Positions 23,976-30,125 of a stretch of 44,410 nt of DNA are shown here, in pieces. The notes beneath the pieces were generated by a model, which saw only the letters and a list, made by a program, of their open reading frames with translations, was not told the DNA's origin and made no database searches. Source of the DNA: Sneathiellales bacterium (GTDB lineage Bacteria > Pseudomonadota > Alphaproteobacteria > JANQFL01); NCBI GenBank assembly GCA_028277845.1, contig JANQFL010000025.1, forward strand, positions 1 to 44,410, read 5' to 3'. Made by a program: the position numbers and the translations under genes. The first letter of the stretch is position 1. The number at the start of each line of letters is the position of its first letter.

Positions 23976-25376
23976 CTATGAAAACACGACTTGAATGTCG
24001 GTGTATTCGGCCAGGCCTTCTTCGCCGAATTCGACGCCGAGCCCCGATGCCTTGATGCCGCCGAACGGAGCGTTGGGCTGGATGGCGCCGTGTTTGTTGA
24101 TCCAGACGGAGCCGCATTGCAGACGGCCGGCGATGCGCCGTGCCGCGTCGATGTCGGACGACCAGACCGAACCACCCAGGCCGTTGGGGCTGTCATTGGC
24201 GGCGTCGATCGCCGCGTCCAGGTCGTCGTACTTGATGATAGGCAGCGCCGGACCGAATTGCTCCTCGTCCACCAGGGGGTCGCCGTTGGACAGACCGGCG
24301 ACAATCGTCGGATTGAAGAACAGGCCGTCCCCCGGTTCGCCGCCCAGCAGGACCCGGCCCTTGCGTTTGGCGCTGTCGACCAGGCGCTGCACTTTCTCGA
24401 ACTGCATCCGGTTTTGCACCGGGCCCAGGACGGACGCTTCGTCGCTGCCATTGCCCACCGGGACGGTCCTGGCGAATTCGACCAGGGCCGCGCAGACGTC
24501 GTCATGGACATCCCCGTGGACGTAGAGGCGTTTCATGGCGGCGCACGTCTGGCCGTTATTGATGAACGCACCCCAGAACAGGCCCTCGGCAATGGCCGCC
24601 GGGTCAACGTCGGGCAGCACGACGGCGGCGTCGTTGCCGCCCATTTCCAGGGTGAGGCGTTTCATTGTCGACGCTGCCGACGCCATGATGTGTTCGCCCG
24701 TGGCGCAGGAGCCGGTAAAGACGATTTTCCGGATGTCCGGGTGCGTGGACATGGCGGCGCCCAGATTGACCTCCTTGTCGTCGCCGGACACCGCATTGAC
24801 CACGCCGGCGGGCAGGACCTCGTTCATCAGTTCGACCAGCCGCAGGGTCGCCAGCGGGGTATTGGGCGAGGGTTTGATGACGACCGTGTTGCCGGTCCGC
24901 AGCGCGGGCAGGATATGCCAGACGGCGATCAACACGGGAAAGTTCCAGGGGGTGATCGAGCCGACGACGCCGATCGGTTTGCGGTGCAGTTCGACCCGGC
25001 CCTCATTGTTGTCCTGCAGCACCTTGAGCGGCAACGACAGGCCCGCCGTGAAGCCGGCCCAGGCCTCGGCGCCCCCCAGTTCCCATCGCGAACCCAGCCC
25101 GTTCAACGGCTTGCCCTGTTCGGCGGTGACGATTTGCGCGAGTTCCTCGGCGTGTTCGGCAATTTTTGCGGTCACGGCTTCGCAGGCCCGGCGCAACGCG
25201 TCGTCCGGCGTTCGCGACCAGGATTCGAATGCCCGCGCCGCGGCGCCGACCGCCCTGTCCAGGTCGTCCAACGCCGCGTTCGGGGCGTCGCCGGCGGTGC
25301 CTCCCGCCGGGTTGGCCACGGCAAAGTGGGCGCGTGCGGACGCACGGCGTCCGTCGATCGTCATGTGGTAGGTCAT
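23976..25376 (-). CDS. NAD(P)-dependent aldehyde dehydrogenase
   Basis: A 466-residue ALDH-superfamily enzyme. The catalytic set is Asn145 (TPWNFP), general base Glu244 (LEMGGND) and Cys278 (NNGQTCAA); the cofactor segment is VVIKPSPNTPLATL. It oxidises an aldehyde to the acid in the cytoplasm. It is the last gene of the four-gene operon with the StyA-like monooxygenase, EthD-like protein and flavin reductase (14-base gap). In styrene degraders the aldehyde dehydrogenase follows the monooxygenase and isomerase, so it probably removes the aldehyde product here. Position 248, Asn in GGND, is often Lys in other members. Confidence 0.9.
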   Translation of the reverse strand: MTYHMTIDGRRASARAHFAVANPAGGTAGDAPNAALDDLDRAVGAAARAFESWSRTPDDALRRACEAVTAKIAEHAEELAQIVTAEQGKPLNGLGSRWELGGAEAWAGFTAGLSLPLKVLQDNNEGRVELHRKPIGVVGSITPWNFPVLIAVWHILPALRTGNTVVIKPSPNTPLATLRLVELMNEVLPAGVVNAVSGDDKEVNLGAAMSTHPDIRKIVFTGSCATGEHIMASAASTMKRLTLEMGGNDAAVVLPDVDPAAIAEGLFWGAFINNGQTCAAMKRLYVHGDVHDDVCAALVEFARTVPVGNGSDEASVLGPVQNRMQFEKVQRLVDSAKRKGRVLLGGEPGDGLFFNPTIVAGLSNGDPLVDEEQFGPALPIIKYDDLDAAIDAANDSPNGLGGSVWSSDIDAARRIAGRLQCGSVWINKHGAIQPNAPFGGIKASGLGVEFGEEGLAEYTDIQVVFS

Positions 25377-25390
25377 GGATTCCCCGTTGT

Positions 25391-25882
25391 TCAGGTTGGA
25401 ATGGCGCCGAATTCGGCGCCCAGGACGCGATACTGGCTTGAATAGAACACGAGCGGATCGGCATCGGCGTAACCGCAGCCGGTGACGCCGCCGATCAACA
25501 ATGTGTGATCGGCCACCACGACGGACTGCGTGACATGGCAGTCGAAATAGGCAATGGATCCGTCCAGCCGGGGCATGCCGTCCGACTCGAGGAACGCCGG
25601 CCGCAGGCCGGGCACCTGGCGGCCCGCGAAATGGCTCGATATTTCCCGGGCGGAAGCCGGCAGGACGTTGACCCCGAAACGGCCGCGCCGGGCGATCGCC
25701 CGCAGGGTCCGGCCGTCACGAAGCGAAACGAGCACCGTCGGCGGCGACAGGCTGACGGAGGTAAAGCTGTTGGCCGTCATGGCGACGGTCCGGCCGTCCG
25801 GTTCACGCGTCGTGACGATGGTCACGCCCGTCGTGAAGCGGGAAACGGCTGTCCGGAACGCCTTGGGATCGGGGCGCTCCAT
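25391..25882 (-). CDS. Flavin reductase (small FMN/FAD reductase, StyB/HpaC type)
   Basis: A 163-residue NAD(P)H:flavin oxidoreductase of the split-barrel family. It opens FRTAVSRFTTGVTIVTTREP, followed by MTANSFTSVSLSPPTVLVSL, the flavin-binding signature, and ends ADADPLVFYSSQYRVLG. Such reductases deliver reduced flavin to a partner monooxygenase. It follows the EthD-like gene by three bases and precedes the ALDH gene by 14 bases. The StyA-like gene two genes upstream is the likely partner. Family and role are well supported; NADH versus NADPH preference is not visible. Confidence 0.92.
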   Translation of the reverse strand: MERPDPKAFRTAVSRFTTGVTIVTTREPDGRTVAMTANSFTSVSLSPPTVLVSLRDGRTLRAIARRGRFGVNVLPASAREISSHFAGRQVPGLRPAFLESDGMPRLDGSIAYFDCHVTQSVVVADHTLLIGGVTGCGYADADPLVFYSSQYRVLGAEFGAIPT

Positions 25883-25885
25883 GCC

Positions 25886-26182
25886 TTACGGCTCCACCGC
25901 AAAATGAAAGACCTGCGCGCCCTTGGGCGAATAGTTCGGAACATCGCCGGCGACCCGCTGGCCGATCTCCGATCCCATGGCGGCGCCAAAGGCGTCCGCG
26001 TCCTCGAAATACCCCTGAAAGATGCAGAATACGTCGCCCGGACCGACGGCGTCGGGATAGGCGTAGCGCATGGTCTTCAGGCCGGGGAGCTGTCCGGCCA
26101 GAGGCAGGTGCGTGTCCTCGTAATAGGCCTTGAAGGCAGCCTCGTCGTCGGGCCTGGGGTAGATGACGGTCAGACAGTGCAT
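25886..26182 (-). CDS. EthD family small protein
   Basis: A 98-residue protein with the EthD (dimeric alpha+beta barrel) pattern: LTVIYPRPDDEAAFKAYYEDTHLPLAGQLPGLK, a central FQGYFEDADAFGAAM, and a C-terminal GAQVFHFAVEP. EthD-type proteins occur with oxygenases and in other catabolic clusters, and their role is usually unknown; related folds include isomerases and monooxygenases. It sits between the StyA-like and flavin reductase genes, 13 bases after the first and three before the second, so it is made in step with them. It takes the place where a styrene-oxide isomerase would be expected, which makes it a candidate for handling the epoxide. Confidence 0.85.
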   Translation of the reverse strand: MHCLTVIYPRPDDEAAFKAYYEDTHLPLAGQLPGLKTMRYAYPDAVGPGDVFCIFQGYFEDADAFGAAMGSEIGQRVAGDVPNYSPKGAQVFHFAVEP

Positions 26183-26195
26183 GGCATGGGCCTCC

Positions 26196-27431
26196 CTATT
26201 CCGCCGCCCGGTCCATTGTGCTGCGTTCGATCCAGCGGCGGATCCGGGCCGGCGAGCCGAGATTGTCCCACTGGCGTTCGGGCCAGTTGAAGTTTTCGGT
26301 GAACTCGTCGCACAGGGACTTGTTCTGGCTCATGGCGCCAAGCAGCATCTGAAATTCCTCCGACGGTGGGGGCATGACCAGGTTGGTCCAGCGCGCCGCC
26401 GCCAGGCAGCGGTCGTTGCGCGCCATGTCGACCCGTTCGATGAAGCGCCGGTCCAGCACCGGCGCGTCGACGATTTCCCGGCCCATCTGGAACGCGGCAT
26501 AGGAGGCAATGTTGGCGCCCTGGCCGTTGACCGGATCGACGGTCACGTGCACGTCGCCGACGGCGACGGCGTATTTGCCGTTGTCGAATTCGACATAACT
26601 CTTGCGCACCGTCGGCACGACGCCGCCCTGCAGAATATCGACCGGCTGGCACAGGTCGAAGGACGCGGTGTCGACCCGGTCGTAAACGGACGGATGAAAC
26701 CTTTCCAGGGCATCGAGGATGACCTGGCGGAACGCGGCCGGGTCATTTTCGTATTTGGCCGTGACGGTCGCTTCCAGCTCCGTGCCGGGCACGTTTTCGA
26801 ATAGAAGCGCCGTACCCATGCCGCCGAATGTGATGGTCGGGATGACGATCAGTTCGCCGGCTCCGGGTGTCAGGGACAAGGTGACGTTTTTCGGATTCGC
26901 ATGGGCGACGCCGGTATACAGGCCGCAACTGAGACGCCGTTGCGGCTGCTGATAGGGGGATTCGGCGGGATCGTGTTCGAACATCGCGCCCAGCGGCCCC
27001 TTGCCGACGGCAACCACCACCAGATCGAACCGGTCGGCGAGCACCGGGATGTCGTTTTCTTCGATGCGCCGGTATTCGATCCGGCCGCCGCGGCTCTCGA
27101 AATCGTCCATCAGGGCGGGCAGGTAGATCCGGTAGTCGACGGCCCGCGACGGCTTCTTGAAATGTCCGGGGAAATTGATCGGTTCGGGAAAGTTGAGCCA
27201 ATGATCATGGTAATGGTAGTGATCGTCCATGTCCGGCCAGTGGTTCACGCCCAAGGCCTTTTCCCGCTCCAGCGTCGTGTTGTGATGGGCCACCGTATTG
27301 AGCAGCGGCGCCGTGCGGTAGTCGCCGGGCTCGCGGTCGGTGACGATCGTGGCCTCGATATCCCGCTGCTGCAGGTACAGCGCAAGATGCAGTCCCGCGA
27401 CGCCGGCGCCGATAATGCCGATGTTGTGCAT
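26196..27431 (-). CDS. StyA-like FAD-dependent monooxygenase (group E; styrene/indole monooxygenase family)
   Basis: A 411-residue flavoprotein monooxygenase. The FAD-binding GIIGAGVAGLHL (4-15), the LLNTVAHH segment, the PSRAVDYRIYLP block, ELIVIPT and DPVNGQGANIASYAA match StyA of Pseudomonas styrene degraders in order and spacing, as does the C-terminal DEFTENFNWPERQWDNLGSP. Two-component enzymes of this group epoxidise styrene or indole using reduced FAD from a partner reductase. It lies first in the operon, with GGGAGG upstream of the ATG, divergent from lysR. The close StyA-like features support the family; the actual substrate (styrene, indole or another alkene) is inferred only as a class. 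Confidence 0.88.
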   Translation of the reverse strand: MHNIGIIGAGVAGLHLALYLQQRDIEATIVTDREPGDYRTAPLLNTVAHHNTTLEREKALGVNHWPDMDDHYHYHDHWLNFPEPINFPGHFKKPSRAVDYRIYLPALMDDFESRGGRIEYRRIEENDIPVLADRFDLVVVAVGKGPLGAMFEHDPAESPYQQPQRRLSCGLYTGVAHANPKNVTLSLTPGAGELIVIPTITFGGMGTALLFENVPGTELEATVTAKYENDPAAFRQVILDALERFHPSVYDRVDTASFDLCQPVDILQGGVVPTVRKSYVEFDNGKYAVAVGDVHVTVDPVNGQGANIASYAAFQMGREIVDAPVLDRRFIERVDMARNDRCLAAARWTNLVMPPPSEEFQMLLGAMSQNKSLCDEFTENFNWPERQWDNLGSPARIRRWIERSTMDRAAE

Positions 27432-27501
27432 ATGATGCCCTCCCTTTGTTGACCATCAGGCTATTGCAGGAGAGCTTCATCGAGAATAGCATATAATAGA
27501 T

Positions 27502-27511
27502 AATAATTATT
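27502..27511. promoter_or_regulatory. AT-rich divergent promoter with palindrome AATAATTATT
   Basis: The 90-base gap between the StyA-like gene and lysR is strongly AT-rich at 27484-27521. It contains the perfect palindrome AATAATTATT (27502-27511) and two overlapping TATAAT-like words. This is the natural place for the LysR site controlling the monooxygenase operon. No exact T-N11-A box was fixed. Confidence 0.45.
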
Positions 27512-27521
27512 CAATACTGGA

Positions 27522-28418
27522 ATGAATATGGATCGTCTGGAGTGCCTCGAAACCTTCGTGCATGTGTTGGAAAGCGGCAGTTTCTCGGCGGCGGCGAAAC
27601 GCCTGGGCACGACCCAACCGACGGTCAGTAAGCGAATCGCCATGCTGGAGGACGCATTCGGCGCCACCCTGTTTCTACGCTCGACCCGGCGGCTGGCGCC
27701 CACGGAGGAGGCCGGCCGGATTTATCCGCGGGCCCGCGACATCCTGGAAACCTACGACATCGTCCGCGCCAGCGCGCGCAATGTCGTTCCGGTTCCGACC
27801 GGCACTCTGGTCGTGAGCGTGCCGTCGTCGCTGGGCCGGCATTTGCTGATGCCGCTGGCCGCGGAATACATGCGGTTGCACCCCGAGGTGTCCCTGGATA
27901 TCCGCCTGTCGGAACGGCAAGTGAACCTGGTCGAGGAAGGGGTTGAACTGGCCCTGCGCATCGGGGAGTTGAACGACAGTTCGTTGCGCCTGCGGGCCCT
28001 GGGCCGCGTGCGCCGGTTCGCGGTCGCCAGTCCGGACTATCTTCACCACCGGCCGTCGCCGCGGGACCCCGGCGAACTGGCGGAACACATTTGCATCGGC
28101 TATTCCCGATTCGGCGCGCCGACGAAGTGGGTCTTCGAGGGGGAACACGGCCGCCACGTGGTCAATGTGGAATGCATCATCAAGCTCGACGACGCGGACA
28201 CGCTTCAGGCGGCGGTGCTCGAAGGCATGGGTGTCGGCATTCTGCCCAATTGGCTGGTGCAACCGCGGCTGGAGGCCGGTGACCTGGAGATCGTTCTTCC
28301 CGATTACACCGTCCCAAGCCTGCCCCTCAACGCGATCTACGCCGATTCCGGCCCGCTGTCGCTACGGGCCCGCAGTTTTCTCGACTTCCTTGCCGAGAAG
28401 CGGATGCGGTTGACCTGA
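27522..28418 (+). CDS. LysR family regulator of the StyA-like operon
   Basis: A 298-residue LysR protein. The N-terminal winged helix-turn-helix (about residues 4-62, FVHVLESGSFSAAAKRLGTTQPTVSKRI) is followed by the two-lobe ligand domain (about 93-292, from VVSVPSSLGRHLLMP). It is divergent from the StyA-like gene, the standard layout of a LysR activator with its target operon. The start could be 27522 or the ATG at 27528, which has GGA at 27519-27521. Its 3' end overlaps the convergent KstD-like gene by 57 bases. Confidence 0.93.
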   Translation: MNMDRLECLETFVHVLESGSFSAAAKRLGTTQPTVSKRIAMLEDAFGATLFLRSTRRLAPTEEAGRIYPRARDILETYDIVRASARNVVPVPTGTLVVSVPSSLGRHLLMPLAAEYMRLHPEVSLDIRLSERQVNLVEEGVELALRIGELNDSSLRLRALGRVRRFAVASPDYLHHRPSPRDPGELAEHICIGYSRFGAPTKWVFEGEHGRHVVNVECIIKLDDADTLQAAVLEGMGVGILPNWLVQPRLEAGDLEIVLPDYTVPSLPLNAIYADSGPLSLRARSFLDFLAEKRMRLT

Positions 28419-30125
28419 CCTTCCCGGTCCGTGCGCGGCCGCCAAGCGCCGCCCGGCGATGTAGCCGAACGTCATGGCCGGGCCGATGGTGATACCGGCG
28501 CCGGGGTAGGTGCCGCCCATGACCGACGCCGCGTCGTTGCCCACGGCATAGAGCCCGGGAATGACCGCGCCGCCATCGCCGACCACCTGGGCGTCGGCGT
28601 TGGTGGCGATGCCGGCGAACGTGCCGAGCTCCGCCGGTTCCAGTTTCACGGCGTAATAGGGGCCGGTTTCCAGCGGCGCCAGGCAGGGGTTCGGTTTCCA
28701 GGTGGGGTCGCCGTTGAAAAACTGATAGGCATCCGAACCCCGGTTGAAGTCCGGATCCTCGCCCCGCCGGGCGTGTTCGTTGAAGCGTTCGACCGTGCTT
28801 GCCAGGCCGTCCGGGTCGATGCCGCAGGCCGCCGCCAGCGCCGCGACGGTGTCGCCCCGCTTGATGTAGCCCGAGGCGACAAACGGTCCGATGCGCACCG
28901 GCGCCGGTCCCAGCGCGCCCAGGCCGAAGCGCTTGATGGCCCGGTGATCGCACACCACCCAGGCCTCGATGGCCGCGTCGCCGCCGCAGGCCTCGGCCAT
29001 GGCGGCGACGAAGACGTGGTAGGACTGGGCCTCGTTGACGAAGCGCCGGCCGCGCCGGTCGACGCTGATATAGCCCGGCTTGCCCCGGTCGAGGAAATGG
29101 GGATAGGGGGTCGTGGTGCCGTCCGCCTGGGGCACGGTCGAGGCCGGCGTCCAGGCGGCGGGCTGGTTGACGTCGTCGTGAAACCGCCCGCCGACGGACT
29201 GGGCCAGGCGCAGCCCGTCGCCCGTGTTGCCGGGCGGCGGCAGGGTGACGTGGTTCTTGCCCGCGGCCAGGTGTTTGTAAACGTGCCCGGTGCGGTCCTT
29301 GTCGCGGGGGAAGCCGCCCGAGGCCAGCACCACGCCGCGCCGGGTTTTGACGGTGACCCGCCGGCCGTCCTTTTCGACGACGGCGCCGGTCACCCGGCCG
29401 TTGTCCCCGGTCAGTTCGACCACCGGCGACGACAGCCACAGGCCGATGCCGCGTTCGCGGGCATGCCAGGCCAGGCGGGCGATCAGGGCATTGCCGTTGA
29501 CCAGCCGCGTGCCCCGGTCGTGGCGCAACCTGTCCCTGGCATAGCGCGCCACCATGCCGGCGACGTGCAGGGCGGATTTGACCGACCGGGTCATGTTGAA
29601 GACGTGCGGCACGTCGTTGCGGCCCACCATCATGCCGCCGAAGCCCATCATGGTGCGGATCGGCGGCCGCAGCTTGGCGAACAGCGGCCCCAGCCTGCGC
29701 CCGTCGAAGCCGTCCGGCACCAGGGAGCGGCCGCCCTGGGACGCACCGGGTTCGTAAGGATGGTAATCGGCCCAGGTGGGCGCCACGGATAGCGCGACGA
29801 GGCCTTCCCGTTCGAAGCGGTCCAGCATTTCGGGGGCGGTGTCGACGAAGGCTTCGGCCCGCGACCGGTCCAGGTGGTTGCCCACATGGGCGGCCAGATA
29901 GTCCAGGGCGTCGCCGCGGCTGTCGGGCAATCCGGCGTCCAGTTGATGACGGTTCATGGGCACCCACAGGACGCCGGCGGAATAGGCCGTGGTGCCGCCG
30001 AACAGGGGCTCCTTCTCCACCATCAGCACGTCCAGGCCTTCGAGCCGGGCGGTCAACGCCGCGGCATAACCGCCGGCGCCCGAGCCGGCCACGAGCACGT
30101 CGCAGTGATGTTCATTCTCGTTCAC
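28362..30125 (-). CDS. KstD-like FAD-dependent dehydrogenase (3-ketosteroid dehydrogenase/fumarate reductase superfamily)
   Basis: A 587-residue flavoprotein. The FAD fingerprint LVAGSGAGGYAAALTARLEGLDVLMVEKE lies near residue 11-38. The C-terminal GTYPGAGITIGPAMTFGYIAG corresponds to the KstD block where Tyr and Gly of Y-P-G-x-G form the active site, and the NEAQSYH segment holds another Tyr in the position used by KstD. These features favour a 1,2-desaturase of a cyclic ketone (steroid or similar) rather than a fumarate reductase. The start is GTG at 30125. It follows the SDR gene by 28 bases on the same strand. Its last 57 bases lie antisense to the lysR 3' end. Confidence 0.82.
   Translation of the reverse strand: MNENEHHCDVLVAGSGAGGYAAALTARLEGLDVLMVEKEPLFGGTTAYSAGVLWVPMNRHQLDAGLPDSRGDALDYLAAHVGNHLDRSRAEAFVDTAPEMLDRFEREGLVALSVAPTWADYHPYEPGASQGGRSLVPDGFDGRRLGPLFAKLRPPIRTMMGFGGMMVGRNDVPHVFNMTRSVKSALHVAGMVARYARDRLRHDRGTRLVNGNALIARLAWHARERGIGLWLSSPVVELTGDNGRVTGAVVEKDGRRVTVKTRRGVVLASGGFPRDKDRTGHVYKHLAAGKNHVTLPPPGNTGDGLRLAQSVGGRFHDDVNQPAAWTPASTVPQADGTTTPYPHFLDRGKPGYISVDRRGRRFVNEAQSYHVFVAAMAEACGGDAAIEAWVVCDHRAIKRFGLGALGPAPVRIGPFVASGYIKRGDTVAALAAACGIDPDGLASTVERFNEHARRGEDPDFNRGSDAYQFFNGDPTWKPNPCLAPLETGPYYAVKLEPAELGTFAGIATNADAQVVGDGGAVIPGLYAVGNDAASVMGGTYPGAGITIGPAMTFGYIAGRRLAAAHGPGRSGQPHPLLGKEVEKTAGP

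Follow-up and report, generated by a model that had tools for sequence, protein, structure and literature searches.

The window, a stretch of 44,410 nucleotides from a Sneathiellales bacterium, encodes a styrene-type monooxygenase of a clade in which the genomes have no detectable gene for the isomerase StyC. In the styABCD pathway, StyC normally follows the styrene monooxygenase, and its absence is a trait of this lineage. The reading tentatively favoured here is that the genes form a LysR-controlled operon for the epoxidation of aryl alkenes, in which the epoxide would rearrange without a dedicated partner and an EthD-family protein would play an accessory part.

Organization, conservation and regulation of the operon

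The operon occupies the minus strand and is headed by styA (26196..27431), encoding a StyA-type FAD-dependent styrene monooxygenase of 411 amino acids. This is followed by ethD (25886..26182), encoding a 98-residue dimeric α+β barrel protein of the EthD family, and by genes for a 163-residue StyB-like flavin reductase (25391..25882; PF01613, Flavin_Reduct) and a 466-residue aldehyde dehydrogenase (ALDH; 23976..25376; PF00171, Aldedh) that is neither StyD nor FeaB. The intergenic gaps are 13, 3 and 14 nt, respectively, and a divergent gene on the plus strand (lysR; 27522..28418) encodes a LysR-type regulator of 298 residues (PF00126, PF03466). The preliminary description of this DNA had given the same order, gaps and divergent lysR, and the Pfam and NCBIfam families agree with it. 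The lysR gene overlaps tail-to-tail by 57 nt (28362-28418) with a minus-strand gene for a ketosteroid-dehydrogenase-like FAD protein (28362-30125).

A search of other genomes for the order StyA-EthD-reductase-ALDH, suggested in the preliminary description, recovered it in Flavimaribacter sediminis (genome G385, locus L004), where the same five genes occur in the same order with 56-81% identity per protein. The flanks of that unit are unrelated, with malate synthase on one side and BacA, a glutathione S-transferase (GST) and QueG on the other. The identical order in the two organisms indicates that it is not a chance arrangement. The exact order inclusive of the ALDH gene was seen in these two genomes only, within drawn rather than exhaustive samples comprising 1542 genomes or records in all. 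Shorter versions are lysR/styA-ethD-reductase in G563 and G621, and lysR/styA-reductase in locus L003 and in G778 and G987. No StyA was found among the 57 other genomes of a nearest-relatives search, none of which belongs to the same family as the window's own genome.

The regulator is conserved in position, with orthologues of lysR occupying the same place in L003 (71% identity) and L004 (69%). The gaps between lysR and styA contain a palindrome, ATTCC-N5-GGAAT, at the same place in StyC-less and StyC-bearing operons alike, which eight loci match exactly and from which L003, L076 and the window each depart at one position. The window copy (ATTCCAGTATTGAAT on the minus strand; 27509..27523) overlaps the listed start codon of lysR. 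As judged by comparison of these gaps, the palindrome is probably the LysR operator. In both genomes of family f171, a luciferase-like monooxygenase gene (5894-6925 in L074 and 9912-10943 in L075) lies beyond lysR on the side away from styA.

A styrene-type monooxygenase in a genome with no detectable StyC

The window StyA belongs to the family Smoa_sbd and scores 628.8 bits against the NCBIfam StyA model NF045732, above the curated equivalog cut-off of 550, and its closest solved structure is the StyA of PDB entry 3ihm (E 4e-126). Sequence fingerprints have been reported that separate styrene monooxygenases (SMOs; N46-V48-H50-Y73-H76-S96) from indole monooxygenases (IMOs; S46-Q48-M50-V/I73-I76-A96) (PMC13101512). 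Alignment with StyA of Pseudomonas putida S12 reveals the complete SMO set (NVHYHS) in the window StyA, and the IMO set is absent from it. The initial naming of this protein as StyA-like is thus well founded, and its family membership and fingerprint suggest a styrene-type epoxidase that would act on a vinyl side chain.

The same residues bear on the proposal that the operon serves in the degradation of indole, a substrate raised as an alternative in the preliminary description, or of another N-heteroaromatic. Strains with styrene operons, including S12, do also make indigo from indole (PMC9537497), and the iif-type indole monooxygenase clusters likewise pair a group E flavoprotein with a reductase. 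They differ from the window operon in fingerprint, however, and the window's genome carries its own separate copy of such a cluster: a second monooxygenase, 29% identical to the window StyA and bearing the IMO fingerprint SQMVIA, is encoded elsewhere in the genome (G000:C122; L080 6692-9302), flanked by genes for a flavin reductase and an SDR, as an iif-like indole set apart from the window operon. Given the SMO fingerprint and this separate set, the window operon is unlikely to act on indole, and a role in N-heteroaromatic degradation is considered highly improbable.

No StyC-like gene is present in the window operon. A StyC gene elsewhere in the genome, which under the same regulator would have counted for the preliminary description as a refutation of its interpretation, was sought with the curated model NF045734, and no match was obtained even at E <= 10 in this 98.5%-complete genome; the absence noted earlier for the operon therefore holds genome-wide. 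The 14 stock control genomes did not yield a useful StyC control, so StyC-bearing genomes served instead, and the same search returned 216-224 bits in G168, G265, G1043 and a Phaeobacter plasmid. The first three of these genomes each contain three to four StyC-like genes, scoring 58 to 224 bits. In six genomes with a similar StyA (F. sediminis, the Gammaproteobacteria bacterium UBA5109 (G386), G563, G621, G778 and G987), StyC was not found above chance, absence being weaker evidence in incomplete assemblies such as G386 than in the window's own genome. The best scores against the StyC model in such genomes were 15 bits in F. sediminis, 18 bits in G778 and 15 bits in G987. The flanks of styA in L003, L004 and L073-L075 were inspected for a shared candidate isomerase and contain only housekeeping or unrelated genes.

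Maximum-likelihood analysis of 26 group E proteins gathers the seven StyA proteins from genomes with no detectable StyC into one clade (support 99/99) that includes none of the ten StyC-linked StyA proteins. Since these seven sequences are related, the StyC-less state represents one or few events, not seven. Two StyA proteins of Rhodococcus jostii RHA1, both encoded on plasmid pRHL1, join the StyC-less group (97/99), and a search of this plasmid gave no match to StyC. The pRHL1 locus (L040 4603-9025) comprises two styA genes separated by a gene for an AraC regulator, followed by genes for EthD and a flavin reductase. The StyA of Gordonia rubripertincta CWB2, likewise of the styrene type and without a neighbouring StyC gene, groups with Rhodococcus StyA and not with the StyC-less clade. 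Given this separate place in the tree, at least one further loss or replacement of StyC has probably occurred.

EthD in StyC-bearing and StyC-less operons

The preliminary description suggested that EthD could fill the place of the missing isomerase. The family assignment of EthD is secure: the protein exceeds the cut-offs of both PF07110 (35.6; cut-off 22) and TIGR02118 (65.2; cut-off 30.5), and its predicted model (pLDDT 88.5) adopts the ferredoxin-like α+β barrel fold, with the EthD structure 2ftr as the best match (Z 16.4, rmsd 1.4, 96 residues aligned). The next neighbours of the fold are diverse α+β barrel proteins, which include a hydroxynitrile lyase, a polyketide cyclase and 4-methylmuconolactone methylisomerase (Z 11.2). 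The predicted fold is thus that of a superfamily with many activities, and does not decide for or against isomerase activity.

The distribution of EthD is more informative. Six operons contain both EthD and StyC, namely those of P. putida S12, Phaeobacter, Marinibacterium, G168, G265 and G1043. The gene order in P. putida S12 is styABCDE followed by ethD, whereas Phaeobacter inhibens P88 has styA-ompW-reductase-styC-ethD-aldh, an order repeated in Marinibacterium, where ethD is unannotated. Three genomes of family f42, from the class of the window's genome, display a divergent lysR and then styA-ethD-styB-styC. Conversely, three of the seven StyA proteins from StyC-less genomes have no EthD encoded beside them (L003, L074 and L075), nor is an ALDH gene found beside styA in these loci, which indicates that the StyA clade can do without EthD. 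Within the literature searched, the sole instance of EthD together with a styrene monooxygenase places EthD in the paa cluster of Exiguobacterium.

The possibility that EthD took over the StyC step, as a soluble enzyme that isomerizes or opens epoxides, draws on its position, with ethD lying between styA and the reductase gene in the StyC-less window, F. sediminis, G563 and G621, and on the fold that it has in common with the methylisomerase, among other enzymes. Against this, the same type of EthD accompanies StyC in the six operons above, the alignment reveals no set of residues by which EthD of StyC-less operons can be distinguished from that of StyC-bearing ones, and the three StyC-less relatives lack it beside styA. 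Moreover, StyC, the known isomerase, is a heme-dependent membrane protein (PMC12502698), unlike EthD. Such a takeover is judged quite improbable, and because six EthD operons also have StyC, EthD as a straightforward replacement was rejected as the leading reading. From its occurrence, EthD is more likely a shared helper of styrene-type operons than a substitute for StyC. It appears to be a recurrent member of these operons, closing the well-studied operon of S12 and occurring in several more. Hence, the earlier interpretation stands as to the identity of StyA, the genome-wide lack of StyC and the conserved gene order, but not as to EthD in the role of isomerase.

The possible fate of the epoxide

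StyB is the best NCBIfam model for the reductase, at 181.8 bits just below its cut-off of 200, whereas the ALDH falls far below the cut-off of the StyD model (369 bits against 850). Compared with the S12 styABCD(E) operon of plasmid pTTS12, the window operon has a similar StyA (48% identity), a StyB-like reductase (42%), an ALDH and an EthD (39% identical to the terminal EthD of S12), but it is devoid of StyC and StyE, its ALDH is not StyD (37%) and LysR takes the place of StyS/StyR. The ALDH is instead 81% identical to that of F. sediminis and 74.6% identical to those of Phaeobacter and Marinibacterium. A paralogue elsewhere in the window's genome (65% identity) adjoins a gene for HPPD. The P. 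inhibens P88 operon further resembles that of the window in its EthD (56% identity) and divergent LysR, but it and the Marinibacterium operon differ in having StyC, OmpW and adjacent paa genes, and the reductase of Phaeobacter reaches only 34% identity. The ALDH is therefore of the type that follows StyC in Phaeobacter, and this close match (75% identity) to an enzyme from an operon with StyC suggests an arylacetaldehyde-like substrate.

The route that may follow from these features would begin with the flavin reductase, which would make the reduced FAD used by StyA, together with O2, to epoxidize a vinyl side chain, as family membership and fingerprint suggest. The epoxide would then give rise to an aldehyde without a dedicated partner, perhaps because the epoxide of the natural substrate, for example an electron-rich vinyl arene, rearranges readily; alternatively, StyA itself may release some aldehyde. 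The preliminary description had likewise considered an alkene whose epoxide rearranges unaided. According to a review, it has been suggested that SMO turnover yields phenylacetaldehyde non-specifically (PMC5874493). The ALDH would oxidize the arylacetaldehyde-like product to the acid, and EthD would serve as a general accessory protein of styrene-type operons, not as the missing isomerase. This favoured reading is supported by the score and fingerprint of StyA, the lack of StyC, the co-occurrence of EthD with StyC, the three StyC-less relatives with neither EthD nor ALDH beside StyA, the ALDH identity, the well-supported clade and the reported suggestion on SMO turnover. Weighing against it, the fold neighbours of EthD indicate that this fold can host isomerases, the ALDH might receive its aldehyde from another source, and the exact order with the ALDH gene is known from two genomes only.

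The lower pathway presents a further difficulty. TIGR02156, the model for PaaA, has no match in the window's genome, leaving an arylacetate product with no evident usual route. The model exceeded its cut-off in five of eight genomes or records (F. sediminis, G168, G265, G342 and the Phaeobacter plasmid), and PaaA was not found in G386 with it. Flavimaribacter sediminis, alike in operon order and content and in having no StyC above chance in its genome, differs from the window's genome in this presence of PaaA. With PaaA absent, the usual phenylacetate pathway is probably not where the product goes; the acid is probably not phenylacetate bound for the PaaABCDE route, or else it is excreted.

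The main rival to the favoured reading is a host enzyme: a gene located elsewhere in the genome would supply a substitute for StyC, for instance a GST or an epoxide hydrolase. Precedent is provided by G. rubripertincta CWB2, the locus of which has no StyC match beside styAB and in which GSTs are supposed to stand in for StyC (PMC8552685). A StyC-free epoxide-to-acid route, which the preliminary description had thought possibly undescribed, thus has a forerunner; CWB2 differs from the window in its use of GSTs and in the placement of its StyA. The window operon itself includes neither a GST nor an epoxide hydrolase gene, the sole nearby GST in F. sediminis lies upstream among the BacA and QueG genes, and the operon ALDH is better suited to an aldehyde than to a glutathione adduct or a diol. 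On balance, replacement by a host enzyme is somewhat unlikely.

It is also conceivable that StyA performs a different oxygenation, such as sulfoxidation or detoxification, with the ALDH and EthD acting on a side product or being loosely linked passengers. The three relatives that carry only lysR, styA and the reductase gene are consistent with this, as is the related two-component VpStyA1/A2B, which has been described as an aryl alkyl sulfoxidase and not an epoxidase (PMC6017014). Full retention of the SMO fingerprint and an ALDH of the type found in a StyC-bearing styrene operon argue otherwise, making this explanation improbable.

Extended to the family, the proposal is that the StyC-less StyA clade converts an aryl alkene to the aldehyde, either in one go or by way of an epoxide for which no partner is required, or else employs EthD as a soluble, heme-free epoxide isomerase, so that an epoxide-to-acid route would operate with no membrane isomerase or glutathione; for the clade as a whole this is regarded as unlikely. 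Should aldehyde formation indeed require no isomerase, the enzyme would be of use in the one-step production of aldehydes from alkenes. More generally, the grouping of seven matches to the StyA model, all from StyC-less genomes, in a single clade means that annotation of a protein as StyA does not imply a styABCD pathway.
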